Positions 50,301-62,579 of a stretch of DNA of 64,000 nucleotides are shown in pieces (position 1 is the stretch's first letter; each line of letters begins with the position of its first letter). The position numbers were made by a program, and so were the translations under genes. Location of the stretch: assembly GCA_030141605.1 (NCBI GenBank), contig JAQGDQ010000051.1, forward strand, positions 498,001 through 562,000. The letters are read 5' to 3'. The DNA is from Tubiluchus corallicola. Its lineage: Eukaryota; Priapulida; Priapulimorpha; Priapulimorphida; Tubiluchidae. The notes under the pieces were generated by a model. It was not told the origin of the DNA and made no database searches. It worked only from the letters and a program-made list of their open reading frames with translations.

Positions 50301-53300
50301 TAATTGATGTTTACAAATATGTGTTTGGGGTTTATAGCCGTGACGATGATTGTCTCCTGTTAAATTGGAAGTACATCGTACAGCAAGGTCCTATTTTTCA
50401 TAAATCAAGAACAGTACACCAAACCGATAAATACGACTTTTTTCTTTTACAATGCCACATATCATTTCTTTTACAATAACAAGGATGTTTGATTTTATAT
50501 ATGTGTGCTTGCATAGTAAAATCGTCCATAAGACGACAATTAAGCTTTTCTGGTTATTCACATAACCCGAATCTCCATTTCACGTGGATAATTTTTATAT
50601 AAAGATAATTGCTCTATTATTTCTAAGCTGAGATAAATCCACGTTGAAGTCGAAGGGCACGGTGCGTACTGAAAAACATAATCTTGAGAAAATCGCTATT
50701 AAAGTTAGACATGTTTTCTGTCGCGTTTCTACAAAACACAAAGCAACCGCACAGATGTTGGTTGCTATGGACTTTGCAAGAGTACACTGAAGTTATGTTT
50801 AAATCCAGTAGATGGCTCTCCCTGACGAAGAACTGCACTTGGCAACAGCAAAAACCCGAAGCAAAATGACTGTTGCAATTGTGGTTGGTGCTCAAACATA
50901 ATCTAAAGAAACACTTGCAAAGTAAATCAGCATTCATCATTTTAATCCAACGGCTGTAGTACAGTCACATGATCATGACGTCATATACTATATATCGTAA
51001 AAATGACAGCTTCCAGGAGCTACTATCAGAGTTTGAAAATAGGAGTTTTTTTTACAATTGCAGTACTAGTTTCTAGACAGAAAAGTGGGTAAGGAGTTAT
51101 AAAAGTAAATTTTTAGTGTTTCTTGAACACTTTCTTGATTTTTGTGTTGATGATAAATTAATGTATGTGGAATTTGTCGTAATTACAGTAGAAGAACTAT
51201 TTATCTCAAAAGTTATATTTATAACTACTGGAGATAACTATAACTACTATATGGTTTCTGTTGGTCTGAAAACCAGGGAGTTTACTTTTTCCTTTATGAC
51301 ACTTCTGCAAAGATAAACCCGAGAACATGAACTGGATTACCTGAATTGGTTGTAGAATACACTTGTATGTTTGTCTTCAAGCAAGATTGTCACCAACATA
51401 ATTATTTGTGACTGTAGATACTCATTATTAAAGCTATTAGAGCTTTATCTTGCTCATTATGATATTTATGGTGATTACATGAGATGAACTGTATTATTAA
51501 ATTATATTGGTATAATAAGATATGTCGGCCTATTTCATTAGAATGGTAAACGACATAGCCACATTTTAGTAAGAGAGATTTGTACATGATATGATAAATA
51601 TATATTTGCTCAAAAGCACATTATGATATAAGTGTATACAATACTACGTGATATAGCAATAGATCATACTTAGCAACGTGCACCTAGCATATCCTCAACA
51701 ATGAGACTCCAGGAGATAACATAGCGCTTGGTGGGCTACTATGTTAACTCAACTTAAACATAAGTTAGACATAACTTTAAGTAGATTTCTGAGGAAGCCT
51801 ATTAAAAATAGAATAATTAGTTTATTAAATGGGTAATTAGGCAGAATGCCAAATCCTACTTTCTATAGGCTTATTCAGAAAAATATTGCATGTTCATTAA
51901 TGAACCTGTTTGCTGGGGCAGATTCAGGCAACCAGGGTAAATACGTATAAACACTCTGCCTCAAGATATGCTTACACCGGCATGTTTCCCGACAGCAGAT
52001 GTGGCCTGCCATGAAATAAGTCTTATGAGAACTTAATGAATGATAAAGTATAGGACTAAAACACTAAGTGAGATGCAATTTTATTTTGTTAAACATGAGT
52101 CACACTATACAGTTTACATGAAAGACATGGAGTCATATAATGGAGGAGTAGCTTTGCTTGTGTGAAAAACAATTAAAAGTGTACGTGTGTCTACGAACAA
52201 TGAAACGGAAGTAGTAGCTGTCGATTTTATCAACAGTGCTCCATCAAGACTCGTTTGTTGTTACTGTTCACCACCAGCTGACATTGTGTATATTAACAAA
52301 CTCTGTGACACTAAAAGCTCTCTGCAGAATGTACATTATCCTACTATTGTGCTTGGCTATTTTAATTTGCCACTTTTTGAGTGGACCAGTTTTACTTATC
52401 CTGTCTCAGCCACGTATGAAAAGTTTGCCAATTGTATTCTTGAAAATAGATTAACTCAGTGTGTGCAAGGTTCTACGTGTAATGACAACATATTGGACTG
52501 TGCATTTCATAACATCTGATGGTAATCAAAGTCTCAGTCTAGCTTTGGAAATTCTTGCAGAATGGGCCAACAAATGGCAGCTTACTTTTGCAGCTCATAA
52601 GTGTGTACTCATTCACATAGGACGTAGTAATTCCCATTTTCAGTACGTGTTAAACGACACGCCTTTGCCGGTGAATACTAATTGTAGAGACTTGGGTGTT
52701 ACTGTGTGTTAAGACCTAAAATTTTTAATTTACTGTACTGAGCAGGTTGCCAAAGCTTTTGAAGTAGCAAATATGGTTTTTGTTGATTTGCTACGAAAAA
52801 CATTGACGCTCTTTTAACATTATATAAGTCATTCGTTGGACCTTTGTTGGAATATTGCACTCCTGTTATAGATCTAAGTTTTCTTACCTATATGGCTAGT
52901 CTCTGATTAAGGGGTCATAGTTACAAGTTGTACAAAAATTATTGTCGTATTGATATTTTTAAACACTTTTTTGCAAACAGGGTGATCGATATGTGAAACA
53001 ATTTACCGTTGGTGATTATTACTGCTAACAACTTACATTCTTTTTTCATTAAACTACTTACATTTGATTTTAATCCTTTTTGTAAATTTAATAGAAATAG
53101 CTATAACTAATGTGAGCCACTGTAAGTGCTTTCATGCCTGATGGCTTTCTCCCTTCCTAAAACATTAGCTAATCATATTTATTTGCAGGATTTTATTGTA
53201 TATGTGCAATTGTATATTTGGATTGAATAAATCTAATCTGAAAGTGTTTCTGAGAATGTGTTCTTAAAATTTGTATTTGTTAGTCTTAAAAATGATTCCA

Positions 53301-56300
53301 ATTAAACATGGCAAAACCAGATAAAACGTGTTCTTGTTTGTGTGGTTTCAAATTATTTATCACATTAAAAGCGTTATACTGTTTGTTATTTATTTGATTT
53401 GTTTAATAAAGGGCGAAGCCATAGTCCACGTCGTGAAGAAACGCCAGTGCCAGATGTAAATGGTGATGATGAAATACTAGAATCACTCGTCAAGTCAGCA
53501 ACAACTCAACCCAATACACGGGCAGCTCCACGTGAACGTAAGCGTGCTAGACAAGGAACGAGAAAATCATGTAAGTTTTCTACGTGAACGCAAGCGTGCT
53601 AGACGAGGAAAGAGAAAATCATGTAAGTTTTCTACGTGAACGCAAGCGTGCTAGACAAGGAACGAGAAAATCATGTAAGTTTTCTATGTGAACGTAAGTG
53701 TGCTAGACAAGGAACGAGAAAATCATGTAAGTTTTCTACGTGAACGCAAGCGTGCTAGACAAGGAACGAGAAAATCATGTAAGTTTTCTACGTGAACGCA
53801 AGCATGCTAGACAAGGAACGAGAAAATCATGTAAGTTTTCTGCGTGAACGCAAGCGTGCTAGACAAGGAACGAGAAAATCATGTAAGTTTTCTGCGTGAA
53901 CACAAGCGTGCTAGACAAGGAACGAGAAAATCATGTAAGTTTTCTATGTGAACGCAAGCGTGCTAGACAAGCAACGAGAAAATCATGTAAGTTTTCTATG
54001 TGAACGTAAGCGTGCTAGACAAGGAACGAGGAAATCATGTAAGTTTTCTATGTGAACGCAAGCGTGCTAGACAAGGAACGAGAAAATCATGTAAGTTTTC
54101 TACGTGAACGCAAGCGTGCTAGACAAGGAACGAGAAAATCATGTAAGTTTTCTGCGTGAACGCAAGCGTGCTAGACAAGGAACGAGAAAATCATGTAAGT
54201 TTTCTACGTGAACGCAAGCGTGCTAGACAAGGAACGAGAAAATCATGTAAGTTTTCTACGTGAACGCAAGCGTGCTAGACAAGGAACGAGAAAATCATGT
54301 AAGTTTTCTACGTGAACGCAAGCGTGCTAGACAAGGAACGAGAAAATCATGTAAGTTTTCTACGTGAACGCAAGCGTGCTAGACAAGGAACGAGAAAATC
54401 ATGTAAGTTTTCTACGTGAACGCAAGCGTGCTAGACAAGGAACGAGAAAATCATGTAAGTTTTCTACGTGAACGCAAGCGTGCTAGACAAGGAACGAGAA
54501 AATCATGTAAGTTTTCTATGTGAACGCAAGCGTGCTAGACAAGGAACGAGAAAATCATGTAAGTTTTCTACGTGAACGCAAGCGTGCTAGACGAGGAAAG
54601 AGAAAATCATGTAAGTTTTCTACGTGAACGCAAGCGTGCTAGACAAGGAACGAGAAAATCATGTAAGTTTTCTATGTGAACGTAAGTGTGCTAGACAAGG
54701 AACGAGAAAATCATGTAAGTTTTCTACGTGAACGTAAGTGTGCTAGACAAGGAACGAGAAAATCATGTAAGTTGTCTACGTGAACGTAAGTGTGCTAGAC
54801 AAGGAACGAGAAAATCATGTAAGTTGTCTACGTGAACGCAAGCGTGCTAGACAAGGAACGAGAAAATCATGTAAGTTTTCTACGTGAACGCAAGCGTGCT
54901 AGACAAGGAACGAGAAAATCATGTAAGTTTTCTACGTGAACGTAAGTGTGCTAGACAAGGAACGAGAAAATCATGTAAGTTTTCTATGTGAACGCAAGCG
55001 TGCTAGACAAGGAAAGAGAAAATCATGTAAGTTTTCTCCGTGAACGCAAGCGTGCTAGACAAGGAATGAGAAAATCATGTAAGTTTTCTATGTGAACGCA
55101 TGCATGCTAGACAAGGAAAGAGAAAATCATGTAAGTTTTCTATGTGAACGTAAGTGTGCTAGACAAGGAACGAGAAAATCATGTAAGTTTTCTATGTGAA
55201 CGTAAGTGTGCTAGACAAGGAACGAGAAAATCATGTAAGTTTTCTACGTGAACGCAAGCGTGCTAGACAAGGAACGAGAAAATCATGTAAGTTTTCTGCG
55301 TGAACGCAAGCGTGCTAGACAAGGAACGAGAAAATCATGTAAGTTTTCTATGTGAACGTAAGCGTGCTAGACAAGGAACGAGGAAATCATGTAAGTTTTC
55401 TATGTGAACGCAAGCGTGCTAGACAAGGAACGAGAAAATCATGTAAGTTTTCTACGTGAACGCAAGCGTGCTAGACAAGGAACGAGAAAATCATGTAAGT
55501 TTTCTGCGTGAACGCAAGCGTGCTAGACAAGGAACGAGAAAATCATGTAAGTTTTCTACGTGAACGCAAGCGTGCTAGACAAGGAACGAGAAAATCATGT
55601 AAGTTTTCTGCGTGAACGCAAGCGTGCTAGACAAGGAACGAGAAAATCATGTAAGTTTTCTGCGTGAACGCAAGCGTGCTAGACAAGCAACGAGAAAATC
55701 ATGTAAGTTTTCTATGTGAACGTAAGCGTGCTAGACAAGGAACGAGGAAATCATGTAAGTTTTCTATGTGAACGCAAGCGTGCTAGACAAGGAACGAGAA
55801 AATCATGTAAGTTTTCTACGTGAACGCAAGCGTGCTAGACAAGGAACGAGAAAATCATGTAAGTTTTCTGCGTGAACGCAAGCGTGCTAGACAAGGAACG
55901 AGAAAATCATGTAAGTTTTCTACGTGAACGCAAGCGTGCTAGACAAGGAACGAGAAAATCATGTAAGTTTTCTATGTGAACGTAAGTGTGCTAGACAAGG
56001 AACGAGAAAATCATGTAAGTTTTCTACGTGAACGCAAGCGTGCTAGACAAGGAACGAGAAAATCATGTAAGTTTTCTACGTGAACGCAAGCGTGCTAGAC
56101 GAGGAAAGAGAAAATCATGTAAGTTTTCTACGTGAACGCAAGCGTGCTAGACAAGGAACGAGAAAATCATGTAAGTTTTCTATGTGAACGTAAGTGTGCT
56201 AGACAAGGAACGAGAAAATCATGTAAGTTTTCTACGTGAACGTAAGTGTGCTAGACAAGGAACGAGAAAATCATGTAAGTTGTCTACGTGAACGTAAGTG

Positions 56301-59300
56301 TGCTAGACAAGGAACGAGAAAATCATGTAAGTTGTCTACGTGAACGCAAGCGTGCTAGACAAGGAACGAGAAAATCATGTAAGTTTTCTACGTGAACGCA
56401 AGCGTGCTAGACAAGGAACGAGAAAATCATGTAAGTTTTCTACGTGAACGTAAGCGTGCTAGACAAGGAACGAGAAAATCGTGTAAGTTTTCTACGTGAA
56501 CGCAAGCGTGCTAGACAAGGAACGAGAAAATCATGTAAGTTTTCTACGTGAACGCAAGCGTGCTAGACAAGGAACGAGAAAATCATGTAAGTTTTCTACG
56601 TGAACACAAGCGTGCTAGACAAGGAACGAGAAAATCATGTAAGTTTTCTCCGTGAACGCAAGCGTGCTAGACAAGGAACGAGAAAATCATGTAAGTTTTC
56701 TATGTGAATGCAAGCGTGCTAGACAAGGAAAGAGAAAATCATGTAAGTTTTCTATCTGAACGTAAGCGTGCTAGACAAGGAACGAGAAAATCATGTAAGT
56801 TTTCTACGTGAACGCAAGCGTGCTAGACAAGGAACGAGAAAATCATGTAAGTTTTCTACGTGAACGTAAGTGTGCTAGACAAGGAACGAGAAAATCATGT
56901 AAGTTTTCTACTGAACGTGAACGCAAGCGTGCTAGACAAGGAACGAGAAAATCATGTAAGTTTTCTATGTGAACGCAAGCGTGCTAGACAAGGAACGAGA
57001 AAATCATGTAAGTTTTCTATGTGAACGCAAGCGTGCTAGACAAGGAACGAGAAAATCATGTAAGTTTTCTACGTGAACGCAAGCGTGCTAGACAAGGAAC
57101 GAGAAAATCATGTAAGTTTTCTATGTGAACGCAAGCGTGCTAGACAAGGAAAGAGAAAATCATGTAAGTTTTCTCCGTGAACGCAAGCGTGCTAGACAAG
57201 GAATGAGAAAATCATGTAAGTTTTCTATGTGAACGCAAGCGTGCTAGACGAGGAAAGAGAAAATCATGTAAGTTTTCTACGTGAACGCAAGCGTGCTAGA
57301 CAAGGAACGAGAAAATCATGTAAGTTTTCTATGTGAACGTAAGTGTGCTAGACAAGGAACGAGAAAATCATGTAAGTTTTCTACGTGAACGTAAGTGTGC
57401 TAGACAAGGAACGAGAAAATCATGTAAGTTGTCTACGTGAACGTAAGTGTGCTAGACAAGGAACGAGAAAATCATGTAAGTTGTCTACGTGAACGCAAGC
57501 GTGCTAGACAAGGAACGAGAAAATCATGTAAGTTTTCTACGTGAACGCAAGCGTGCTAGACAAGGAACGAGAAAATCATGTAAGTTTTCTACGTGAACGT
57601 AAGCGTGCTAGACAAGGAACGAGAAAATCGTGTAAGTTTTCTACGTGAACGCAAGCGTGCTAGACAAGGAACGAGAAAATCATGTATGTTTTCTACGTGA
57701 ACGCAAGCGTGCTAGACAAGGAACGAGAAAATCATGTAAGTTTTCTACGTGAACACAAGCGTGCTAGACAAGGAACGAGAAAATCATGTAAGTTTTCTCC
57801 GTGAACGCAAGCGTGCTAGACAAGGAACGAGAAAATCATGTAAGTTTTCTATGTGAATGCAAGCGTGCTAGACAAGGAAAGAGAAAATCATGTAAGTTTT
57901 CTATCTGAACGTAAGCGTGCTAGACAAGGAACGAGAAAATCATGTAAGTTTTCTACGTGAACGCAAGCGTGCTAGACAAGGAACGAGAAAATCATGTAAG
58001 TTTTCTACGTGAACGTAAGTGTGCTAGACAAGGAACGAGAAAATCATGTAAGTTCTCTACGTGAACGTGAACGTAAGCGTGCTAGACAAGGAACGAGAAA
58101 ATCATGTAAGTTTTCTATGTGAACGCAAGTGTGCTAGACAAGGAACGAGAAAATCATGTAAGTTTTCTATGTGAACGCAAGCGTGCTAGACAAGGAACGA
58201 GAAAATCATGTAAGTTTTCTACGTGAACGCAAGCGTGCTAGACAAGGAACGAGAAAATCATGTAAGTTTTCTATGTGAACGCAAGCGTGCTAGACAAGGA
58301 AAGAGAAAATCATGTAAGTTTTCTCCGTGAACGCAAGCGTGCTAGACAAGGAATGAGAAAATCATGTAAGTTTTCTATGTGAACGCATGCGTGCTAGACA
58401 AGGAAAGAGAAAATCATGTAAGTTTTCTATGTGAACGTAAGTGTGCTAGACAAGGAACGAGAAAATCATGTAAGTTTTCTATGTGAACGTAAGTGTGCTA
58501 GACAAGGAACGAGAAAATCATGTAAGTTTTCTACGTGAACGCAAGCGTGCTAGACAAGGAACGAGAAAATCATGTAAGTTTTCTATGTGAATGCAAGCGT
58601 GCTAGACAAGGAATGACAAAAGTTACGTAAGTTTTCCACATCACCACTTGAATGTAGTCATGTTAGATTATGATCAAGAAAGTCCTAACTTCTCCATGTT
58701 AATACAAGGCATTGTAGACTGGGAACATGGCTTTTTCACTTGACTGTAAGTGTGCTAGAAACAGTCAGGTGAAACAGACATTTTAGAAAGGAAATAAGGA
58801 AGTCACAAATTTTTTTTCATGCAGTCTGTATTACATTGCAGAAATTAGTAAAACTGTGAAACAGAAATTTCTTTTATAAGATGTCATTGTGAGAAAACAA
58901 AAGAATTTTGAATCAACCACATGCCAAGTTTGTGCAAAAAAATAAACAATAAGTAAGTATGTAAGTAAGTAAGTGACTGAGTTTATTTTATAATAACCAT
59001 TTATTATAACAAGATAAGTAACTAAAAAATTACAATATTATACAGCATTCAATGACATTAGAAAAGTGTACGAATGGTTATTGAATTGAGTGTTGAAAGG
59101 ATGGTAAAAGAACTGTGAGTATCGAAATCAGTCACTCCCCGAAACGTAGCAAATAATAATTAATTAATGCACATGTATTTAGAAATGTAACATTATAAGA
59201 TTTTGCACTTAAGACTATTGTTGGTTAAATTATGACATAAAAGTTTTAGTTTTTAGTGGACAAAAAGTGTGTACAGCAATGTTCAATCATGGGAAAGAAA

Positions 59301-60096
59301 AGAAAAGACAAGTGTGACTAATTTTGAATATTAAGTTAAGTTTTGATTAGTTTTTGCATTTAAAATGATTATTATTCTTGTGACCTTAAAAAAATTTGGG
59401 TTGTAGTCTGTAAATATGGGCATAAATACATGAATGCGTATTTTATATGAGCAATAATGTCTTAGCATAGCTACCTGGAAGCAGAAACTCGTGGGTTCGA
59501 ATCTCAGTGCAGCTACAAGATTTTTCTGACATTCTAATTTAAAGGAAAGGACAATCACTTTGTATATCGTGTTTATTTTACTATTATCACTTAATAGAAA
59601 AACATAACAAAAAAATTTGCACGTAAACTTTCTGTAAAGCACAAAATTAATTTATATTACTGCTGAATAGAAATTTTCAGCACTGTTATATCCGCCATTT
59701 ACTTGAAAATTATGACATAACTGGCAGACTTCGTGACTTTCGTAAATGCATCATAGCTTTCCTTAAGCGCACGTTGCTTAAAAAAATTCAAATTCAAATT
59801 GACAGTGCCCTGCTTTAAAGTGATTTTTGTAATTATACAAAATGCTTACCACACTTTTATTACTAATTCTTCTTAACATTTTTCGTGAATATTGAAGTAA
59901 GCCTCTTCCCTTTTGTGTCCATATATGTATATGATTTTACAACTTCAGACCATTGGTTACATATCACATTTCAGTTTGTGCAAACAATGGATGCAGCCCA
60001 ATTTACATCTATTTTTTGGTTGTTTCAGTGAGACGGACATTGAAAACTGGACTTGATGCTGAAGAAGAAAGGTTTATCAACATGCTTTCATCTTAA
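3769..60096 (+). CDS. FHOD: FHOD-family formin, complete gene of 24 coding exons (1544 aa)
   Basis: Seen: coding exons 3769-3930, 12165-12277, 16402-16460, 17576-17643, 19702-19807, 20895-20989, 23210-23321, 24892-25084, 27350-27457, 28059-28205, 31663-31745, 31918-33024, 35401-35544, 36112-36875, 38390-38548, 40457-40642, 41926-42045, 44704-44865, 45042-45160, 47933-48007, 48384-48576, 49269-49401, 53412-53570 and 60029-60096 join in frame to 4635 nt with one stop. The order of domains is GBD-like fold, FH3, linker, FH1, FH2, DAD, as in FHOD1/FHOD3, and the length is close to long FHOD3 forms. Family knowledge: FHOD formins nucleate or bundle actin filaments in stress fibres and sarcomeres, are autoinhibited by DAD binding to the N-terminal half, and are released by Rho-kinase phosphorylation. 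Inferred: this is the local FHOD orthologue. The vertebrate paralogue split cannot be applied to an invertebrate copy. Not seen: UTR exons with certainty, or isoforms. Confidence 0.95.
3931..7138 (+). other. Intron 1, first part
   Basis: Non-coding and A+T-rich. An imperfect tandem duplication of about 93 bp lies at 4487-4665 (shared core TTTAATCTAGATTAG). The short ORF at 5403-5621 has no recognisable domain and is treated as chance. Nothing else is recognised. Confidence 0.6.
7139..7162 (+). other. Possible alternative first coding exon in intron 1 (MAASNGHR)
   Basis: AAAATGGCTGC begins an 8-codon ORF that ends directly at a perfect donor, CGT|GTAAGT, in phase 0. Exon 2 also starts in phase 0, so splicing would give a formin whose N terminus replaces exon 1. 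Two more GTAAGT sites follow within about 100 bases. This is sequence inference only. A chance ATG next to a donor is quite possible. Confidence 0.2.
7163..8489 (+). other. Intron 1 stretch with an unrecognised 90-codon ORF
   Basis: The ORF at 7533-7805 (+) has several Cys (for example [15 protein letters not shown]) but no domain I recognise, and no splice or promoter context. A short LADDTKLY-like reading at about 8256-8280 recalls the reverse transcriptase catalytic motif, but its flanks do not support a longer match. The rest is featureless A+T-rich DNA. Confidence 0.4.
8490..8660 (-). mobile_element. LINE 3' portion, left piece, split by the R1 tandem insertion
   Basis: This stretch is similar to 22030-22165 (shared AAGTTTTCAACTCCTGTGATG). 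In both places it lies next to the same LINE C-terminal coding piece, which resumes here after about 10045. I read it as the 3' region of a minus-strand LINE, cut in two by the R1 repeats at 8670-10045. Confidence 0.5.
8670..9364 (+). repeat. R1 repeat, copy 1 (unclassified, GC-richer element)
   Basis: The copy begins in a TA microsatellite, then AAGATTCGAGGCTACAGCTC, a GC-rich core with CCTCCAAAAATGGCCATTTT and GGCCGTTTTTTGC, and ends near GGGCCTTTGCTAGTC. Four copies are present in the window in both orientations. Small ORFs in three frames are shadows of base composition, with no domain. It is a dispersed non-autonomous element or satellite-like repeat that I cannot place in a known class. 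Confidence 0.7.
9365..10045 (+). repeat. R1 repeat, copy 2, in direct tandem with copy 1
   Basis: Same order of blocks as copy 1: TA microsatellite at about 9372-9396, GATTCGAGGCTACAGCTC, the CGGCCGTTTTTTGC core, GGGCTACA block and end block GGGCCTTTCCTAGTC at about 10030. An A+T insertion with a short direct repeat (TGATTATACACAAAT type) lies near its right end. The tandem arrangement suggests local duplication rather than two insertions. Confidence 0.7.
10046..10770 (-). mobile_element. LINE fragment: reverse transcriptase YADD region to C terminus, decayed
   Basis: Reading the minus strand in shifting frames gives a [14 protein letters not shown] stretch (the catalytic YADD region) near 10735, then a KYIGSLL-like and a FMYNSEM-like block, and finally LARLPE-like and [14 protein letters not shown] blocks near 10100. 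This is the order seen in non-LTR reverse transcriptases. Many stops and frameshifts show that it is dead. The 3' continuation is at 8490-8660. Confidence 0.65.
10880..11870 (-). mobile_element. Second LINE fragment of a related family, decayed
   Basis: The minus strand encodes, across frameshifts, [14 protein letters not shown] near 11815 (RT motif region), a [14 protein letters not shown] block near 11460, then [20 protein letters not shown] at about 11270 and [19 protein letters not shown] at about 11120. These are standard blocks of non-LTR reverse transcriptase C termini. It has the same orientation as its neighbour at 10046-10770 and overlaps it in domain content, so they are two insertions or a tandem pair. 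Confidence 0.7.
12165..12277 (+). CDS. FHOD: FHOD exon 2: N-terminal domain (aa 55-91, plus 2 nt of 92)
   Basis: Acceptor TTTTTTTTCAG|CTTGAAG. The exon reads [20 protein letters not shown] and an acidic tail with DDDLEDFEE, and ends GAGAA|gtaaat in phase 2. It aligns with the region after APHK in FHOD3 (LDDCTLQLS...). The acidic stretch replaces the EGFQDD segment of the vertebrate protein. Confidence 0.93.
12278..13329 (+). other. Intron 2, first part
   Basis: A+T-rich non-coding sequence. I see no recognisable element or gene. Confidence 0.6.
13330..13975 (+). mobile_element. LINE fragment (reverse transcriptase C-terminal region), decayed
   Basis: Reads [17 protein letters not shown], then [19 protein letters not shown], then across frameshifts [25 protein letters not shown]-like and [11 protein letters not shown] blocks. 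This is the thumb and C-terminal order of a non-LTR reverse transcriptase. Its clade differs from the CR1/Jockey-like pieces elsewhere in the window. Confidence 0.65.
14189..14260. repeat. Perfect inverted repeat (24-bp arms) around a TA microsatellite
   Basis: Arms 14189-14212 and 14237-14260 are exact reverse complements and are separated by 24 bases of (TA)n. The left arm begins GATATGTAATTAATATTATT. It is followed directly by (TC)n at 14260-14279 and (TA)n to about 14318. It is a strong cruciform or hairpin candidate. Confidence 0.9.
14325..14458. repeat. Inverted repeat (31-bp arms, one mismatch), MITE-like
   Basis: The arms at 14325-14355 and 14428-14458 are reverse complements with a single difference (core GGCTAGATTATATTTAAAAG). 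They enclose about 72 A+T-rich bases. The size and termini fit a very short MITE. No clear target duplication is seen because the flanks are simple repeats. Confidence 0.8.
14640..15620 (-). other. Degenerate ORF remnant, unrecognised, antisense in intron 2
   Basis: The minus strand keeps long readable stretches in shifting frames, including [20 protein letters not shown] near 14820 and [20 protein letters not shown] near 14740. This suggests a once-coding piece, perhaps from a transposon. The plus-strand ORFs at 14639-14956 and 14997-15299 are probably its shadows. I recognise no family. Confidence 0.3.
15621..16401 (+). other. Intron 2, last part
   Basis: Nothing recognised. The sequence is A+T-rich and leads to the acceptor ATTTTTATTTTTCAG at 16401. 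Confidence 0.6.
16402..16460 (+). CDS. FHOD: FHOD exon 3: N-terminal domain (aa 92-111, plus 1 nt of 112)
   Basis: A 59-nt exon between TTTTTCAG and gtaagt, entering in phase 2 and leaving in phase 1. It encodes [15 protein letters not shown], nearly identical to the [15 protein letters not shown] block of FHOD3. It is too short to stand out as an ORF. Its phase and conservation identify it. Confidence 0.95.
16461..17575 (+). other. Intron 3
   Basis: About 1.1 kb of A+T-rich intron. I see no repeat family, ORF or RNA gene. Confidence 0.6.
17576..17643 (+). CDS. FHOD: FHOD exon 4: start of FH3/armadillo region (aa 112-134)
   Basis: A 68-nt exon, acceptor TTACTATTACAG, donor CAG|gtattt, phase 1 in and 0 out. 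It encodes [18 protein letters not shown], matching the [18 protein letters not shown] block of FHOD3. Confidence 0.95.
17644..18740 (+). other. Intron 4, first part
   Basis: Non-coding. Nothing recognised before the 28-bp minisatellite. Confidence 0.6.
18741..19176 (+). repeat. 28-bp minisatellite, about 16 units, in intron 4
   Basis: The unit starts CATGCTTACCAACACCTAAC and is about 28 bp. In the second half, units with CACCTAACATC alternate with units carrying CACATGACGTCT, so the real period there is 56 bp. This indicates expansion of a two-unit block. No coding role. Confidence 0.9.
19177..19701 (+). other. Intron 4, last part
   Basis: Nothing recognised. It ends in the acceptor TTATTTATTGCAG at 19701. 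Confidence 0.6.
19702..19807 (+). CDS. FHOD: FHOD exon 5: FH3 region (aa 135-169, plus 1 nt of 170)
   Basis: Encodes [20 protein letters not shown] and [11 protein letters not shown], matching FHOD3 almost residue for residue. Phase 0 in, phase 1 out (CGAG|gtaggg). The open frame continues past the donor only by chance. Confidence 0.95.
19808..20894 (+). other. Intron 5 with a CT-rich microsatellite
   Basis: An interrupted (CT)n tract lies at about 19908-19965, near the start of the intron. The rest is A+T-rich and featureless. Confidence 0.65.
20895..20989 (+). CDS. FHOD: FHOD exon 6: FH3 region (aa 170-201)
   Basis: Acceptor TTTATTTTCAG, donor AAAG|gtaagt, phase 1 in and 0 out. Encodes [20 protein letters not shown] and [10 protein letters not shown], matching the [14 protein letters not shown] block of FHOD3. 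Confidence 0.95.
20990..21700 (+). other. Intron 6, first part
   Basis: The diverged direct repeat GGGTAGGTAGG/GCAAGATAAGTAGG at about 21110 and 21390 is the only pattern noticed. The ORFs at 21207-21413 and 21382-21567 on the minus strand have no recognisable domain. Confidence 0.5.
21715..22050 (+). mobile_element. Possible Penelope-like element remnant (GIY-YIG endonuclease tail)
   Basis: The plus strand reads [20 protein letters not shown] then [11 protein letters not shown], followed in another frame by [13 protein letters not shown]. The order 'C-x-CxNVY-x-GET-x-RxLxxRIxEHKxDVR ... HxxxxxHxxxW' is typical of the GIY-YIG domain at the end of Penelope-like retroelements. The piece is short and frameshifted, so the assignment is tentative. 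Confidence 0.45.
22051..22340 (-). mobile_element. LINE 3' fragment, same family as 8490-10770
   Basis: Similar to 10046-10250 plus 8490-8660 in the same orientation. The minus strand reads [11 protein letters not shown]- and [18 protein letters not shown]-like blocks from the end of a non-LTR reverse transcriptase. This locus shows the uninterrupted form into which R1 was inserted at the other copy. Confidence 0.6.
22341..23209 (+). other. Intron 6, last part
   Basis: Nothing recognised. The ORFs at 22774-23040 (+) and 22892-23104 (-) have no domain. It ends in the weak acceptor TTTATATATAG at 23209. Confidence 0.5.
23210..23321 (+). CDS. FHOD: FHOD exon 7: FH3 region (aa 202-238, plus 1 nt of 239)
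   Basis: Encodes [20 protein letters not shown] and LLIQAI, matching [20 protein letters not shown] of FHOD3. Phase 0 in, phase 1 out (GAGAG|gtatga). The acceptor has a poor pyrimidine tract, but the frame and conservation leave no alternative. Confidence 0.95.
23977..24768 (+). mobile_element. MITE-like DNA element, family M1, copy 1 (intron 7)
   Basis: Starts TGTGCTTGCGAACCAAAACC and ends with its imperfect reverse complement (CGATTTTGCTATGCAAGCACA), giving terminal inverted repeats of about 28 bp. Related copies lie at 33577-34237 (+) and 50504-51160 (-). The internal ORF at 24331-24648 is preserved in the minus-strand copy with few changes, but its Cys/Ser-rich product resembles no transposase, so it is probably non-autonomous. 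Confidence 0.75.
24892..25084 (+). CDS. FHOD: FHOD exon 8: FH3 region (aa 239-302, plus 2 nt of 303)
   Basis: Acceptor TTGTTTTAG, donor TCTAG|gtatgt, phase 1 in and 2 out. Encodes [20 protein letters not shown] and [19 protein letters not shown], matching PWSNIMEILEEKDGVDTELL and the [16 protein letters not shown] block of FHOD3. Confidence 0.95.
25085..26430 (+). other. Intron 8, first part
   Basis: Non-coding with short AAT-rich stretches (about 25745). The ORF at 25932-26117 on the minus strand has no recognisable domain. Nothing else recognised. Confidence 0.55.
26438..26500. repeat. Hairpin-forming inverted repeat at the edge of element E1
   Basis: The arms at 26438-26461 and 26477-26500 are reverse complements with about two mismatches (ATTTAAAGG... 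/ ...CCTTTAAAT), with a short loop of about 15 bases. The right arm belongs to the direct repeat described in the next entry. Confidence 0.8.
26461..27297 (+). repeat. Element E1, copy 1, bounded by ~93-bp direct repeats (intron 8)
   Basis: The segments 26461-26553 and 27205-27297 are nearly identical (CTTTGCTACTTAATCACGTG ... CAACAACAAATTTAGCACAT). The stretch between them (from AAGCGACTGATTAGTATT at 26572) reappears almost unchanged at 34292-34985. It looks like a short repetitive element with terminal direct repeats, or a tandem unit with a period of about 744 bp. No coding capacity. Confidence 0.8.
27350..27457 (+). CDS. FHOD: FHOD exon 9: end of FH3 region (aa 303-338, plus 2 nt of 339)
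   Basis: Acceptor TTAAATCACAG, donor GTAAG|gtaatc, phase 2 in and 2 out. Encodes [19 protein letters not shown], matching KGTDLDLVEQLNIYEVALR in FHOD3. After this point similarity to vertebrate FHOD fades into the linker. Confidence 0.93.
27458..28058 (+). other. Intron 9
   Basis: 600 bp, nothing recognised. A local near-repeat of GCCTTTATATTG occurs around 27820-27890. Confidence 0.55.
28059..28205 (+). CDS. FHOD: FHOD exon 10: basic Ser-rich linker (aa 339-387, plus 2 nt of 388)
   Basis: Acceptor TTTCTTTATTAG, donor AGAAG|gtgata, phase 2 in and 2 out. Encodes [20 protein letters not shown], comparable in position and composition to the RRRSRRHSVQSIKS region after FH3 in FHOD3, which contains potential kinase sites of RxxS type. 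The exact alignment is uncertain. Confidence 0.88.
28480..29400 (+). other. Degenerate ORF remnant in intron 10, unrecognised
   Basis: The plus strand stays readable across many frameshifts and stops ([16 protein letters not shown] near 28600, [20 protein letters not shown] near 28825, [14 protein letters not shown] near 29000, [20 protein letters not shown] near 29105). This suggests a dead coding insertion, either a transposon or a processed copy. I recognise no family, and there is no oligo(A) tail or target duplication to decide. Confidence 0.35.
29401..30439 (+). other. Intron 10, middle part
   Basis: Non-coding. The ORF at 30251-30481 (+) contains [15 protein letters not shown] and [20 protein letters not shown], which recalls the 'C-x-ET-x-HxLLxC' tail of reverse transcriptases, so a further small LINE piece is possible at 30250-30400. 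The rest is featureless. Confidence 0.4.
30440..30830 (-). mobile_element. LINE C-terminal fragment, minus strand (intron 10)
   Basis: The ORF at 30587-30817 (-) reads [20 protein letters not shown] and [14 protein letters not shown], the familiar 'F/Y-A-P-x-LWNxLP' block at the end of CR1/Jockey-type reverse transcriptases. It continues to an (ATT)n-type tail, seen as (AAT)n at about 30455 on the plus strand. It is 5' truncated. Confidence 0.75.
30831..31662 (+). other. Intron 10, last part
   Basis: Nothing recognised. It ends in the acceptor GGAAATTTTCAG at 31662. Confidence 0.55.
31663..31745 (+). CDS. FHOD: FHOD exon 11: Ser-rich linker (aa 388-415, plus 1 nt of 416)
   Basis: 83 nt, phase 2 in and 1 out (TAAAG|gttagt). 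Encodes [20 protein letters not shown]. Low complexity and not alignable with certainty. It is accepted because both splice sites are good and it carries the frame from exon 10 to exon 12. Intron 11 after it is only 172 bp. Confidence 0.85.
31918..33024 (+). CDS. FHOD: FHOD exon 12: large linker exon (aa 416-784, plus 1 nt of 785)
   Basis: The longest exon, 1107 nt, acceptor TTCTTTTTGCAG and donor GAATTAG|gtaaaa, phase 1 in and 1 out. It encodes about 369 residues rich in Ser, Asn, Asp and Lys with no domain I recognise, which suggests a disordered linker between FH3 and FH1. Vertebrate FHOD3 also has a long variable linker here, partly from muscle-specific exons, but I see no residue-level match. 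Because both ends are phase 1, skipping this exon would keep the reading frame (31745 joins 35401). Confidence 0.92.
33025..33385 (+). other. Intron 12, first part
   Basis: Nothing recognised. Confidence 0.5.
33386..33512 (+). repeat. Element E1, partial copy
   Basis: Matches the 26690-26810 and 34425-34545 parts of E1 (ATGAATATGTAATGCTGATT onward), with a small internal insertion. It lies just before MITE M1 copy 3, while a longer E1 copy lies just after that MITE. Confidence 0.75.
33577..34237 (+). mobile_element. MITE-like element M1, copy 3, diverged (intron 12)
   Basis: Starts TGTGCTTGCAATCCAAAACC and ends with its imperfect reverse complement TTTTGGCTTGTAATCACACA. Internally it follows copy 1 in order (ACTGCGTTATGATCCTTCAA, TTTCTCAAGATTATGTTTTTC). 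It has many more substitutions and indels than copies 1 and 2, so it is an older insertion. Confidence 0.75.
34292..34985 (+). repeat. Element E1, copy 2 (intron 12)
   Basis: Nearly identical to 26550-27233 over about 690 bp, from AAGCGACTGATTAGTATT at 34311 to GCTACTTAATCACGTGTT at 34983. It has only one of the two terminal direct-repeat segments, and that one partly. Confidence 0.85.
34986..35400 (+). other. Intron 12, last part
   Basis: Nothing recognised. It ends in the acceptor TTTTTCTTTAATTAG at 35400. Confidence 0.55.
35401..35544 (+). CDS. FHOD: FHOD exon 13: linker (aa 785-832, plus 1 nt of 833)
   Basis: 144 nt, phase 1 in and 1 out (AAAG|gtgaat). Encodes [20 protein letters not shown] and [18 protein letters not shown]. 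The last segment, with TP motifs followed by a hydrophobic LGMMY patch, has its likely counterpart before FH1 in other FHODs. Like exon 12 it can be skipped in frame. Confidence 0.9.
35545..36111 (+). other. Intron 13
   Basis: 567 bp, nothing recognised. Confidence 0.55.
36112..36875 (+). CDS. FHOD: FHOD exon 14: pre-FH1 region, FH1 and start of FH2 (aa 833-1087)
   Basis: 764 nt, phase 1 in and 0 out (GCAAG|gtaagt). Residues about 862-981 are charged linker with many TP sites ([22 protein letters not shown]). Residues 982-1025 are a short FH1 with a single PPPPP run and several [13 protein letters not shown] pieces, which in formins binds profilin-actin. From about 1032 ([12 protein letters not shown]) the FH2 begins. 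[15 protein letters not shown] matches VDTSRLEHLFESKSK of FHOD3. The FH1 is short even for an FHOD, suggesting few profilin sites. Confidence 0.96.
36876..38389 (+). other. Intron 14
   Basis: Around 37330-37395 a short palindromic A+T stretch (TATTGATATTATATA repeated) is seen. The stretch 37560-38010 is somewhat less A+T-rich and might be an old insertion, but I recognise nothing in it. Confidence 0.45.
38390..38548 (+). CDS. FHOD: FHOD exon 15: FH2 domain, actin-contacting segment (aa 1088-1140)
   Basis: 159 nt, phase 0 on both sides, acceptor TTTCATTAG, donor CTTGAG|gtagta. Encodes [20 protein letters not shown] then IKTAILKMD, matching VLDSKRSNAINIGLTVLPPP of FHOD3. This block includes the isoleucine region that in FH2 domains is required for actin assembly, and it is intact here. 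Confidence 0.97.
38795..39060 (+). pseudogene. Broken duplicate of the 3' half of exon 16 plus following intron
   Basis: Similar to 40575-40836, covering the last third of exon 16 (GGCTTTTCAAGCTTGACTAT), the donor region and about 180 bp of the MITE that follows. Compared with the true copy, the AA of GAGAAG before the donor is lost, so the frame is broken. The duplication happened after the MITE arrived, because the copy contains its left part. Confidence 0.85.
39061..39464 (+). other. Intron 15 stretch between the two exon 16 fragments
   Basis: Nothing recognised. It has no counterpart in the true exon 16 region. Confidence 0.5.
39465..39590 (+). pseudogene. Broken duplicate of the 5' edge of exon 16
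   Basis: Similar to 40350-40485: intron sequence with CTAGCTCA and GTGAAAAGTTTTTTGTTTAT, an acceptor-like AATGTTAG, then AAAATTTTGCAAACGATGCTGCC, after which the match stops and a TAG follows in frame. Together with 38795-39060 it gives the two ends of an exon 16 copy in the wrong order. Confidence 0.85.
39890..40115 (+). repeat. Possible strongly diverged R1 repeat
   Basis: A few blocks occur in the R1 order: TGTAGAAAAACATT, a GGGGTATTGGG stretch, AGGGCTACACAACGATG, then a (C)10 run. They resemble TGTAGAAAAAACGTT and AGGGCTACACAATGATG of R1 copy 1. The similarity is patchy. Confidence 0.35.
40457..40642 (+). CDS. FHOD: FHOD exon 16: FH2 domain (aa 1141-1202)
   Basis: 186 nt, phase 0 on both sides, acceptor AATTTTAG, donor GAGAAG|gtttgc. 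Encodes [20 protein letters not shown] then [20 protein letters not shown], matching EKQKIQEAQLANPEVPLGSA of FHOD3. The donor GTTTGC is weak at positions +3 and +4. A MITE starts within 12 bases of it. Confidence 0.96.
40654..40928. mobile_element. MITE with TA target duplication, next to the exon 16 donor
   Basis: The left end (TA)CAGTAGGCACTGCTTAATAG and the right end, reversed, (TA)CAGTGGGTGTCGTTTATTAG form terminal inverted repeats. Both ends are flanked by TA (40652-40653 and 40929-40930). The 275-bp size, TA target and CAGT start fit a Tc1/mariner or pogo-type MITE. Confidence 0.8.
41220..41765 (+). mobile_element. LINE C-terminal fragment with 3' tail (intron 16)
   Basis: The plus strand reads, with one frameshift, [20 protein letters not shown] then [13 protein letters not shown], the end of a CR1/Jockey-type reverse transcriptase. 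It is followed by a 3' UTR ending GGCAAATAAAGATTATTGAC. It is 5' truncated. Confidence 0.75.
41926..42045 (+). CDS. FHOD: FHOD exon 17: FH2 domain (aa 1203-1242)
   Basis: 120 nt, phase 0 both sides, acceptor TATTTGCAG, donor CTCGG|gtaatc. Encodes [25 protein letters not shown] is the FH2 signature, matching LSTLLAIGNFLNGTN of FHOD3. Confidence 0.96.
42200..42630. mobile_element. MITE-like element with imperfect inverted ends (intron 17)
   Basis: The left end GAGTAAATACGTATAACTCG and the right end read in reverse (TACAGTAAACTACATATAAC) are imperfect inverted repeats. Several internal CGAGTTA/TAACTCG motifs occur. The CAGT start and TA flank at the right end recall pogo/Tigger-type termini. 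Confidence 0.5.
42640..44703 (+). other. Intron 17, remainder
   Basis: About 2 kb of A+T-rich intron with no recognisable ORF, element or RNA gene. It ends in the acceptor TTTACTTTATAG at 44703. Confidence 0.55.
44704..44865 (+). CDS. FHOD: FHOD exon 18: FH2 domain (aa 1243-1296)
   Basis: 162 nt, phase 0 both sides (CAAAG|gtatct). Encodes [20 protein letters not shown], matching [20 protein letters not shown] of FHOD3, then [20 protein letters not shown]. Confidence 0.97.
45042..45160 (+). CDS. FHOD: FHOD exon 19: FH2 domain (aa 1297-1335, plus 2 nt of 1336)
   Basis: 119 nt, phase 0 in and 2 out (CAAAA|gtaagt), separated from exon 18 by a 176-bp intron. Encodes [20 protein letters not shown] and [10 protein letters not shown], matching VDFDQLQDNLCQMERRCKAS of FHOD3. 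Confidence 0.96.
45161..47222 (+). other. Intron 19, first part
   Basis: A short tandem AATTTGTTTTTAGTTTGTGT duplication lies at about 45680-45720. A TATACAGGGTGTCTCAAATG stretch at 45930 resembles the end of a DNA transposon, but no partner end was found. The ORF at 46226-46576 (-) has no recognisable domain. Confidence 0.5.
47231..47625 (+). repeat. 24-bp minisatellite, about 16 units, open in several frames (intron 19)
   Basis: The unit is of the type CTTGCTCAACACTCTGCTGT plus TCCT, 24 bp. Because 24 is a multiple of three, ORFs run through it in four frames. The plus frame gives an eight-residue PLAQHSAV repeat, the minus frames VLSKRNSR and SVEQEEQQ. It begins directly after a good acceptor (CTGTTCTTTGCAG, ending 47230) whose frame would continue exon 19. 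No good donor of matching phase follows before the stop at 47777. Most likely it is non-coding repeat DNA. Confidence 0.85.
47933..48007 (+). CDS. FHOD: FHOD exon 20: FH2 domain (aa 1336-1360, plus 2 nt of 1361)
   Basis: 75 nt, phase 2 in and 2 out (GAACAG|gtaact). Encodes [20 protein letters not shown], matching MSEFLKDCAERIIILKIVHR of FHOD3. Confidence 0.96.
48008..48383 (+). other. Intron 20
   Basis: 376 bp, nothing recognised. It ends in the acceptor ATTTTTTTGCAG at 48383. Confidence 0.55.
48384..48576 (+). CDS. FHOD: FHOD exon 21: end of FH2 (aa 1361-1425)
   Basis: 193 nt, phase 2 in and 0 out (ACAGAA|gtatgt). Encodes [20 protein letters not shown] then a Gln/Lys-rich helix with [14 protein letters not shown], matching [20 protein letters not shown] and ERNKTRGKMIT of FHOD3. 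Confidence 0.96.
48600..48815. repeat. Small inverted-repeat element with telomere-like core (intron 21)
   Basis: The outer short inverted pieces CTGTTATAAC (about 48618) and GTTATAATG read in reverse (about 48800), and the inner CCACAGGAAAAA / TTTTTCCTGTGG, surround TAACCCCTAACC and CCTAACCCTAGCC at about 48695-48732. This is degenerate (CCCTAA)n, the vertebrate-type telomere sequence shared by many animals. It may be a MITE that carries such repeats. Confidence 0.55.
48816..49268 (+). other. Intron 21, last part
   Basis: Nothing recognised. Acceptor ATTTAATTTTTAG at 49268. Confidence 0.5.
49269..49401 (+). CDS. FHOD: FHOD exon 22: FH2-DAD linker (aa 1426-1469, plus 1 nt of 1470)
   Basis: 133 nt, phase 0 in and 1 out (TTTCTC|gtatgt... 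with exon end at the C). Encodes [20 protein letters not shown]. Poorly conserved, as this linker is in other FHODs. It is accepted because it directly follows FH2 in frame and its phase fits exon 23. Confidence 0.88.
49402..50110 (+). other. Intron 22, first part
   Basis: Nothing recognised. Confidence 0.5.
50150..50480 (+). mobile_element. LINE fragment, reverse transcriptase thumb region (intron 22)
   Basis: The ORF at 50159-50479 reads [20 protein letters not shown] then [20 protein letters not shown] and VYKYVFG. This is the 'VQRRATKxVxxLxxLxYxxRLxxLxLxxLxxRRxRGDLIxxYK' block of CR1/Jockey-type elements. It is truncated at both ends. Confidence 0.7.
50504..51160 (-). mobile_element. MITE-like element M1, copy 2, inverted (intron 22)
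   Basis: Minus-strand counterpart of 23977-24768. The 105-codon ORF 50623-50940 (-) differs from that at 24331-24648 (+) in only a few residues, so the two copies are nearly identical and in opposite orientation. One terminus, GTGTGCTTGCATAGTAAAAT, is clear at 50502. The other end is eroded or truncated near 51160. Confidence 0.75.
51161..52079 (+). other. Intron 22, middle part
   Basis: Non-coding. The ORFs at 51116-51316 (+) and 51402-51587 (-) have no recognisable domain. Confidence 0.5.
52080..53245 (+). mobile_element. LINE with internal deletion: endonuclease piece joined to RT C terminus
   Basis: The ORF at 52187-52519 reads [20 protein letters not shown] and [19 protein letters not shown]. 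This resembles the GDFN region of the endonuclease domain, with GDFN changed to GYFN. At about 52520 the sequence jumps to [15 protein letters not shown] and [19 protein letters not shown], then [14 protein letters not shown] and a GHSYKLYK- and VIDMWNNLP-like end (frameshifted). The catalytic RT core is missing. It ends near the GATTGAATAAATCTAATCTG tail. Confidence 0.8.
53412..53570 (+). CDS. FHOD: FHOD exon 23: DAD core and basic patch (aa 1470-1522, plus 1 nt of 1523)
   Basis: 159 nt, phase 1 in and 1 out (AATCAT|gtaagt). Encodes [20 protein letters not shown] then [13 protein letters not shown], matching the DEIMDRIVKSATQ...RERKRSRANRKS autoregulatory domain of FHOD3. In FHOD1, Rho-kinase phosphorylates a cluster of two Ser and one Thr here. 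The first Ser (in RKRSR) is Ala here (RKRAR, A1515), while S1522 (RKS) is kept. The last 41 or so coding bases and the donor were the source of the 52-bp array that follows. Confidence 0.95.
53571..58626 (+). repeat. 52-bp tandem array, 96 full units, each a copy of the exon 23 end plus its splice donor
   Basis: The unit is GTAAGTTTTCTACGTGAACG followed by CAAGCGTGCTAGACAAGGAA and CGAGAAAATCAT. From the first donor (53571) to the last clear one (58574) is 5003 bases, equal to 96 x 52 plus two visible insertions of 5 and 6 bases (about 56911 and 58061). A 97th, degraded unit runs to about 58626. The stretch CGTGAACG...AAATCAT is the exon 23 sequence for [13 protein letters not shown], and GTAAGTTTTCTA is the start of intron 23. 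Thus almost every unit carries an intact CAT|GTAAGT donor. 52 is not a multiple of three, and TGA follows shortly in the extended frame, so it cannot be translated through. Confidence 0.97.
58627..59330 (+). other. Intron 23, after the array
   Basis: A (GTAA)n-like stretch AAGTATGTAAGTAAGTAAGT lies at about 58952-58973. Otherwise nothing recognised. Confidence 0.5.
59333..59640 (+). mobile_element. tRNA-derived SINE, copy 1 (intron 23)
   Basis: Contains a B box GGTTCGAATCT (59494-59504) and, 30 bases before it, an A-box-like TAGCATAGCTACCTGG (about 59464-59479), the internal pol III promoter pair of tRNA-derived SINEs. The whole stretch is similar to 61141-61440. It does not fold as a normal tRNA. 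Confidence 0.7.
59641..60028 (+). other. Intron 23, last part
   Basis: Nothing recognised apart from the acceptor TTTTTTGGTTGTTTCAG that ends the intron. Confidence 0.6.
60029..60096 (+). CDS. FHOD: FHOD exon 24: end of DAD and stop (aa 1523-1544)
   Basis: 68 nt, phase 1 in, ends in TAA at 60094-60096. Encodes [20 protein letters not shown] then [11 protein letters not shown] matches LRRTLKSGL of FHOD3, including the Thr (T1526) that corresponds to the third Rho-kinase site of FHOD1. The tail after it is shorter than in vertebrates. Confidence 0.95.
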
Positions 60097-60700
60097 TTAT
60101 TTGTTTCTGGGCCATTCAGATGTTTTCGCATTTTTAGATGCATATGATAATCAACATAATTATTACAATTATTCTTATTAATAGTTACCAAACTACAGGA
60201 AATGAAATTAGCTGTTCAAGTAGCATAATAGGAATATACACTATAATCTGCAACTTATTATGTCTTAACTAATGCAGCAACATGGGCCTACCTACAAGTG
60301 TGATAAGTTTAACACGTGTTTATGGCAGCTATTATAATCATCTAATAATCTTGTTGTTATAAAATCAATCATGCAGTTGTAATACTGTACTATTTCATTA
60401 AATTAATGTATGTGCTACTATGTGTGCCTTTCAAATTAGCCTGTTGCCCCAATTGCAGGAATACCTGTAATTGCAATAAATGATTCTTATTTTTTCCTTT
60501 ATTACACAACCACATTATTTATACTGATGGTCACCGTTGTATTTACTTTGAAAAATAAATTTTTTGAACTGAGGTTTTTTCACATTAGAATAGTGTGTAT
60601 TGTGCTGAAAAAAGTGCAAATATGAAGAAAGGCTAAATAAAATTGTAGTGGCATTGGTGATGCCTGCCACATGGCATGCGTCTGACAATGTATGTTGTCT
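60097..60700 (+). other. FHOD: FHOD 3' UTR with candidate poly(A) signals
   Basis: AATAAA occurs at 60475-60480, 60554-60559 and 60636-60641. The last is followed by a GT-rich stretch (TTGTAGTGGCATTGGTGATG), which makes it the best candidate for the cleavage region. The actual end is not visible from sequence. Confidence 0.5.
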
Positions 60701-60730
60701 GACAAAAGTAAGTTTTATTAGATACTGTAA

Positions 60731-61122
60731 CGTATTACATTGACGCTAACATCAATGTGGTGGAGACTGCATACATAGTACTAATGCACTTATTAAATAG
60801 TTCTTTCATATATAATGTAATATGAAATAATATTATAATACATAATACACATTACATTGAAGTTAACATCATTGGGGTGGAGACAAAATACATAGTACTA
60901 ATATACTTGTGAAATAGTTCTTTAGCATATTACATTGACGCTAACATCAACGTGGTGGAGACTGCATACATAGTACTAATGTACTTATCAAATAGTTCTT
61001 TCATATATAATGTAATATAAAATAATATTATAATACATAATACACATTACATTGACGTTAACATCATTGGGGTGGAGACAAAATACATAGTACTGATATA
61101 CTTGTGAAATAGTTCTTTCATA
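60731..61122 (+). repeat. Tandem duplication, two units of about 196 bp
   Basis: Each unit holds a longer half (ACATTGACGCTAACATCAAT...) and a shorter related half (ACATTGAAGTTAACATCATT / ACATTGACGTTAACATCATT), so there are four related sub-blocks. The second unit begins near 60927. No coding content. Confidence 0.85.
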
Positions 61123-61140
61123 TATAATATAATGAACTCC

Positions 61141-61440
61141 TTTGAATACCAGTTAGTTTTTGCATTCAAGATAATTATCATTATTGTGACAAAGAATTTG
61201 GGGTTGTAGCGGGTAAATATAGCCATATTTAAAATAAATACATGACTGTATATTTTATATGAGCAATAATATCTTAACATAGCTACTTGGAAGCAGAAAG
61301 TCGTGCGTTCGAGTCCCAATGGAGCTACACGATTTTTCAGACATTCCAGTATAAAGGAAAGGACAATCACTTAGCATATCATGCTTATTTTACTATTATC
61401 ACTTAACAGAAAAATATAACAAAGAAATTTACATGAAAAC
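61141..61440 (+). mobile_element. tRNA-derived SINE, copy 2
   Basis: Similar to 59333-59640. The B box is GCGTTCGAGTCC at 61305-61316, and the A-box-like stretch is TAACATAGCTACTTGG. The ORFs that overlap both copies on the minus strand are shadows. Confidence 0.7.
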
Positions 61441-61479
61441 TGTCTATAAAACTATATAATTACCATAAAATTCTATAAA

Positions 61480-62200
61480 AAATATAATTACCAATAAAAA
61501 AAATTGATATTCATAAGCATAGGAGCATGCAAGAGCATCGCTCTGTGAAAATAAAATTCACACATCTGTTGAAAGGAAAATGCTTTCAGTGCAAACTGAA
61601 AACAATTGTGCACAGAAATTTAAAACAAAAGTATATAGTACAATATTATATTCAAATTATAATACAAACTATGTACAATATATACGTACAATTTAGAAGG
61701 GGTGCGGATAAATAAAATTTGTGGAAAATACATACCATCATTAACATATGTATGATTATGAAAACGATTTAAAGTATGTATTTTTAACTTTGATTTAAAC
61801 CCGAAAAAAGTTTGATTTGTTTTAAATTTTGTGGCAGTTCATTTCAGAGTTAAACGGCTTGTGTAGTGATGGAATTTTTGTCATGTCTATTATTACAACG
61901 TGTTTGTCTAACAGGTGTCCTTAGGCTTGGTGCAACATCCGGGAGGAGTGAAAGCTGATTTTTAATGAAAGGGGTGTGAATATTATTGATATATTTGCAT
62001 AAAAATAGGATTGTGTATATATTTGTAAAATTGGAATTTTAAACATGGATTTTAAATCTATTGCAGAAGTTTGATTTGCAATGAGAGACCTTTTATTTGA
62101 ATAACCAAAGACCAACTTTAAGGCATGATTTTGAAGACTTTCACTTATTAGCTGTCTCTTGGCACTTCATGAAAAAGCATGCGTCCGTATAAAACGTGTG
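61480..62200 (-). mobile_element. LINE C-terminal fragment, minus strand
   Basis: Across frameshifts the minus strand reads RCNNRHDKNSITTQAV, then NELPQNLKQIKLFSG near 61830. This corresponds to the LWNxLPxxxKQIKSLSxFK block of the LINE at 41220. Upstream IFTPLSLKISF-like and IYTQSYFYANI-like blocks lie near 62000. It is heavily decayed. Confidence 0.55.
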
Positions 62201-62278
62201 TTAAAAAAAGAGTTTTACAAATTAAAAACTTTGTCTGTTTAGTTAGCTGACCTTTTACCTGCCGTAAGTAATTTCATT

Positions 62279-62360
62279 GGTATATATATATATATATATA
62301 TATATGTATCTTTCATGGTTAGCTAAAAATTATTACACTAGCCTTTTGTGGGCCTGTCTG

Positions 62361-62395
<35 letters not shown>

Positions 62396-62490
62396 ACCGA
62401 AATTAATATAATTCATAAGATTATTAGGTGAATATATATATACCACCGAAATTAATATAATTCATAAGATTATTAGGTGAAGGATAAGCG
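62279..62490. repeat. TA microsatellites and a 49-bp direct duplication
   Basis: (TA)n runs lie at about 62281-62304 and 62364-62391. The stretch starting ACCACCGAAATTAATATAAT is present twice, 49 bp apart (62393 and 62442). TTCGGTGG/CCACCGAA next to TATATA is also the flank of R1 copy 2 at about 9363, so these may be R1-associated insertion sites. Confidence 0.75.
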
Positions 62491-62579
62491 AAAATTAATG
62501 ATATTTTTATGTATTTCGTCATGTTTATAAATCGTCTATTTTACTGATACAATTTTTTTCCTTTTTTTGTGTGTATATA

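Follow-up and report, generated by a model that had tools for sequence, protein, structure and literature searches.

Splice donors in repeats and the FHOD junction array

The closest described system to the locus reported here is the minisatellite of the human gene IFI6 (6-16, G1P3), which by the title of the original paper provides multiple splice donor sites (Turri, Cuin and Porter 1995, NAR 23:1854). According to a paper citing this work, donor use extends to two downstream repeat units and yields three mRNA species. We analysed a window of 64,000 nucleotides from the priapulid Tubiluchus corallicola (contig JAQGDQ010000051.1, positions 498,001 to 562,000), in which the end of a coding exon of the formin gene FHOD, together with its splice donor, is repeated as a tandem array. 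Like the IFI6 repeat, this array is a minisatellite at the end of an exon, with donors carried in its units. Unlike IFI6, it consists of 98 copies of a 52-bp unit, a length that is not a multiple of three, and the use of later donors is predicted to truncate the protein; the IFI6 unit reportedly measures 12 bp and adds its extra residues in frame. An earlier, sequence-only reading of the window had taken a minisatellite made of an exon-intron junction to be undescribed, which does not hold because IFI6 is a precedent. In the literature, surveyed in part, no second array built from an exon-intron junction was found besides IFI6. As far as our searches go, novelty lies in the scale, in a unit that shifts the frame and in the location within an autoinhibitory switch, while the kind of repeat itself is known from IFI6.

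Further parallels are described in the parts of the literature consulted. The number of 38-bp repeats in intron 6 of TERT, a variable number of tandem repeats (VNTR), alters splicing, and the minus-beta isoform needs at least nine repeats; unlike the FHOD units, these repeats act through RNA pairing at a distance of over 1 kb from the junctions and are not said in the text available to copy a junction. Several U1 sites compete within one transcript in ESR1 exon 1 and DOK7 intron 4, as they may in FHOD, but these cases concern two sites instead of 98 and no tandem array. In VWF exon 44, an additional donor disturbs the authentic one and the intron is retained, yet this donor is a single site created by a point mutation inside the exon. 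Earthworm metallothionein genes carry a minisatellite of 10–19 kb in intron 1 and their transcripts are still spliced, whereas the repeat unit is not said, in the portion seen, to contain an exon end or a donor. For the MIR137 VNTR, the accessible text tells of new donors in an exon and does not place them inside the repeats.

Our preferred explanation of the FHOD locus, to which we assign a probability of roughly 60%, is a minisatellite confined to a single locus, whose first donor would mainly be used and whose other donors would mostly be passive decoys. The locus represents a rare natural test of donor choice among near-identical sites: one endogenous transcript carries about 98 almost equal donors, with almost equal surroundings and a spacing wider than the reported U1 footprint, and the result can be read from a single protein outcome. 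Should the first donor always be chosen, exon definition or the co-transcriptional order of synthesis would override the intron-proximal rule at extreme numbers; otherwise, formin autoinhibition would be set by a minisatellite.

Anatomy and origin of the array

The spliced exons of the gene are in frame and encode a protein with an FH2 domain (PF02181, E 1.8e-82). Its named relatives are mostly annotated as FH1/FH2 domain-containing or formin homology 2 domain containing proteins, with the others unnamed or hypothetical, and four FHOD orthologues together cover exons from 3760 to 53575 by tblastn. Because the FH2 domain, the FHOD-type relatives, the mapping of orthologue exons and the match of the last exon to orthologue tails agree, the array-bearing gene is, by homology, FHOD. 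A Diaphanous identity was dropped on the basis of the best relatives and the orthologue mapping. From its first exon detected by homology to the stop codon, the gene spans 3760–60096 (plus strand, as for all features below unless stated otherwise). The penultimate coding exon (53412–53570), numbered 23 in the sequence-only reading, matches FHOD orthologues, and its 5' boundary was placed by an AG and the reading frame. Splicing from 53570 to the acceptor of the last exon adds 22 residues after the junction, and this exon (60029–60096, including the stop codon and taken to the end of its coding part) matches the tails of the orthologues. The intron between them contains a sole AATAAA at 58941–58946, a possible intronic poly(A) signal.

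Tandem Repeats Finder placed the array at 53530–58636 of the window, with a period of 52, 98.0 copies, 95% matches and a score of 9133. The anchor TGCTAGAC occurs 98 times at a spacing of exactly 52 in 95 of 97 intervals, as in a minisatellite of head-to-tail units of one length, and the remaining two intervals measure 57 and 58. The first unit (53530–53581) is composed of 41 exonic bases (53530–53570) and 11 intronic ones (53571–53581) and includes the authentic donor GTAAGT (53571–53576), with its GT at 53571. Units 2 to 98, each of 52 bp, follow at 53582–58636, and the last donor-like GTAAGT (58627–58632) lies in the degenerate unit 98. GTAAGT is kept in 97 of the 98 units, and the units combine a donor with its exonic context in the manner of IFI6. 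The donor sequence is CATGTAAGT in 94 of the 98 units, CGTGTAAGT in two, and TACGTAAGT and CATGTATGT in one each. We distinguished 27 unit variants, the most frequent of which accounts for 33 units.

For comparison, arrays of four or more copies and a unit length from 10 bp upwards were collected from the window and 200 kb of the same contig (264 kb in all), which gave 23 rows, some of them overlapping (19 in the 200 kb and four in the window). The junction array is not due to chance, because it scored 8859 against 1215 for the next best array. It is also the only one among the 23 rows whose unit contains GTAAGT, both strands considered. The sequence basis of these results is one assembly.

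The junction divides the extended polybasic stretch of the DAD, with LRRTLKTGL following it. In human FHOD1, according to the published sections consulted, a single substitution of R1128, R1135 or R1139 weakens the autoinhibitory contact and induces stress fibres, and S1131, S1137 and T1141 are the sites of Rho kinase (ROCK). The window protein has arginines matching R1128, R1135 and R1139 and sites matching S1137 and T1141, and its counterpart of S1131 is an alanine. By our own alignment to the human tail, the repeated unit holds the counterparts of R1128, R1135 and S1137 and the next exon those of R1139 and T1141, the junction being placed just before the counterpart of R1139, a residue at which one exchange activates human FHOD1. 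The FHOD tail is conserved from arthropods to fish.

We searched the 343.5-Mb genome of the same species with a 21-base junction probe, representing 21 of the unit's 52 bases, at up to three mismatches. This yielded 123 forward and 18 reverse matches, compared to 18 forward and 23 reverse matches for the reversed probe used as a control. All 97 matches with no or one mismatch (70 exact, 27 with one) lie inside the FHOD array, and the 26 forward and 18 reverse matches outside it are near the control level. The counts are complete; among the matches listed, locations extend to the first three with two mismatches each, which lie on three other contigs. By this 21-base probe, the unit was not found at other loci as a dispersed satellite would be. 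A 281-base DNA query gave at least 26 matches, all at the FHOD array. Because the probe is unique to the locus at no or one mismatch and the tail is conserved in orthologues, the FHOD exon is, as judged by these comparisons, the source of the 52-bp unit. The results agree with the sequence-only reading that an exon end and its donor were amplified as a 52-bp array, that the junction falls within the DAD of a formin and that the exon is the source and not the recipient; the array size needs correction from 96 to 98 units, with the last one degenerate.

The array looks like an old and largely passive minisatellite. Blocks of units recur 22 units (1149 bp) apart and contain runs that are identical over up to 458 bp. 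Decayed units follow the right edge at 58646–58774; this stretch aligns to the unit with a score of 59, none of 300 shuffles exceeding 39, and 87 of its 127 aligned bases match (68.5%). By the alignment these units have lost the donor, and because of them the array does not appear freshly made. Among five other stretches around the array, four gave no array-derived signal and that at 58811–58980 was borderline, 17 of the 300 shuffles scoring equally high. We discarded the idea of a microhomology scar left by duplication at the two ends, because the decayed units show that the right end visible now is not the original one. In units 2 to 97, two of the nine donor positions from -3 to +6 vary, compared to 14 of the 43 positions elsewhere. 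Because the donor positions thus vary about as often as the rest, we saw no sign of selection keeping the copies working. Predicted RNA structure at the junction gave no signal either (z of -1.35, 0.25 and -0.18).

Donor choice and its outcomes

With the first donor, the exon measures 159 nt and the protein receives its full 22-residue tail. The earlier proposal that later donors bring in a TGA in frame and remove the last 22 residues was borne out for all 95 later donors run through our script (96 of the 98 donors in total, two with CGTGTAAGT having been missed by its filter). In each case, the predicted tail ends in RKSCKFST at the TGA at 53585–53587, which is met whenever the first donor is unused, and retention of the intron gives the same truncated tail. 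By this prediction, the 98 sites of the array reduce to two outcomes. The exon grows to 211 nt with the second donor, then to 263 nt and so on. The distance between stop codon and exon junction is a determinant of mRNA decay, a rule that is weaker in some invertebrates; because the stop lies 35, 87 and 139 nt before the junction with the second, third and fourth donor, the mRNAs from later donors could be open to decay. The last exon is predicted to be translated only via the first donor. Because of this dependence and of its conserved frame (motif RRTLK.GL), the coding sequence of the last exon implies first-donor use. A search for a spliced retrocopy across 53570/60029, which would have revealed this donor in use, gave no match in the genome at up to three mismatches.

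The preferred course of events may be outlined as follows. The array would have started with a tandem duplication of the FHOD exon end including its donor and grown by unequal exchange and segmental duplication, as suggested by the higher-order repeats and the decayed edge units. Exon size and order of synthesis would then, as we consider rather probable, decide the choice of donor: the first one at 53571 is probably synthesised before the others and closes an exon of ordinary size with the upstream acceptor, whereas the remaining 97 donor-like sites would be intronic and act mostly as passive decoys. The U1 footprint, as reported in a passage citing other work, comprises about 23 nt of exon and 12 nt of intron; because it is shorter than the 52-bp unit, U1 could in principle occupy all units together. 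Slips of splicing, by a later donor or by retention, would converge on the one protein ending in RKSCKFST, which should be poorly autoinhibited without the counterparts of R1139 and T1141. In this way, the array may give rise to low levels of active FHOD, or of decay-prone mRNA.

Several observations weigh against this explanation. When two donors are comparable, the intron-proximal (downstream) one tends to win by a mechanism which the published account, as far as consulted, states to be unknown, and this preference runs counter to use of the first donor. The U1 duplex of the authentic donor is modest: at -5.5 kcal/mol, it is weaker than those of six of the eight other FHOD donors scored. A second donor-like site further upstream in the unit, AACGTAAGT, is present at 18 places of the array (53530–58640) and reaches -7.6 kcal/mol; AACGTAAGC stands at this site in nine places, among them the exon's own unit. 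Because the authentic donor is modest and 18 sites pair better, there would be room for leakage. Moreover, the conservation of the last exon spans distant animals and gives no date for donor use since the origin of the array, and the borderline stretch at 58811–58980, beyond the decayed units, is not clearly array-derived. Finally, choice at this junction is known in annotation, as five of 148 FHOD proteins read through the donor and 22 have another last exon.

These 148 proteins are redundant predicted isoforms selected by similarity. In 104 of them, RKS is followed by LRRTL, as in the window, or by FRRTL, and the 22 with another last exon continue with LKRSRT or FKRSRT. RKS is absent in 12, the five read-through proteins show RKSCKC or RKSRKC, two have RKS followed by something else and three have none of these tails. 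The intron position seems old, because the read-through codons of some proteins fit a donor at the same place, with T before the junction and GTAAG after it. In annotation, insect FHOD isoforms differ precisely at the junction, by skipping RKS, by the last exon LKRSRTREN or by read-through (including P0020, P0057, P0060, P0062, P0076, P0079 and P0082). No convincing match to the insect exon LKRSRTREN was found at 48500–64000 of the window. In a tree of 18 FHOD proteins, hand-picked from the 148 plus the window protein, the window branch is long, unplaced and outside a starred insect-crustacean clade of 10 rows, with a warning by the program that a long branch may be wrongly excluded. Because of this position, we regard the insect isoforms as a lead only.

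Among the alternatives, a regulatory role of the array is doubtful, yet survives best. In such a scheme, the number of donors would set how often the first donor fails and tune how much of the FHOD is truncated, ROCK-independent and active, by way of later donors, intron retention via U1 decoys or intronic polyadenylation near 58941. It would fit the convergence of all scripted outcomes on one protein without the counterparts of R1139 and T1141, and the use of the junction as a natural switch point in orthologues by the other last exon (22 of 148), the skipping of RKS (12) and read-through (5). A cryptic donor is able to cause intron retention in VWF, but the same source saw no such effect from cryptic donors located elsewhere. 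Against a regulatory role, the donor positions show no constraint, the decayed edge units are without a donor, the insect last exon was not found at 48500–64000, and the species falls outside the insect-crustacean clade in the tree with the long-branch warning. The suggestion of the sequence-only reading that the array works as a U1 decoy or as a regulator found no positive sequence evidence in the positions compared (2 of 9 against 14 of 43). A more specific form, in which first-donor choice is probabilistic and array length and U1 level together set the fraction of FHOD without the R1139 hook, is slightly more doubtful still; if true, it would constitute a dial of actin assembly that evolves by changes in minisatellite length, independently of Rho kinase.

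It is improbable that the assembler made the array too long or misbuilt it. Repeats that are identical over as much as 458 bp are a classic site of such errors, but the 27 unit variants, the differing higher-order repeats, the two units with indels and the decayed edge units would be hard to produce in this way, and the array sits in an 830-kb contig. A shade less probable is the predominant use of a late donor, which would append up to 5 kb of array after the TGA to the mRNA and leave FHOD normally truncated. The published preference among comparable donors speaks for it; however, the last exon would then be untranslated, yet retains a conserved open frame, the exon would grow to 5 kb, and from the third donor on the stop would lie at least 87 nt before the junction and be open to decay in principle. 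It is very improbable that the exon received its end and donor from a dispersed 52-bp satellite that had inserted next to it. Tandem arrays are common on the contig (19 rows in 200 kb), but the probe for 21 of the 52 bases is unique to the locus at no or one mismatch, and the exonic part of the unit encodes the conserved FHOD tail.

Other repeats and open frames in FHOD

A second duplicated exon-intron junction was observed in the same gene. The end of the FH2 exon at 40457–40642 and the start of the following intron (about 40600–40700) have a near-copy about 1.8 kb upstream (about 38797–38900), which contains a stop codon. Two further minisatellites of about 16 copies each are present in FHOD introns, one with a 28-bp unit at 18740–19175 and one with a 24-bp unit at 47237–47617, the latter being traversed by an open frame of 186 residues. 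Two near-identical open frames of 113 residues are arranged in inverted orientation at 24307–24648 (plus strand) and 50623–50964 (minus strand) and likely belong to an unclassified repeat element. In the middle of the gene, an open frame of 388 residues at 31872–33038 possibly represents a large taxon-specific exon.

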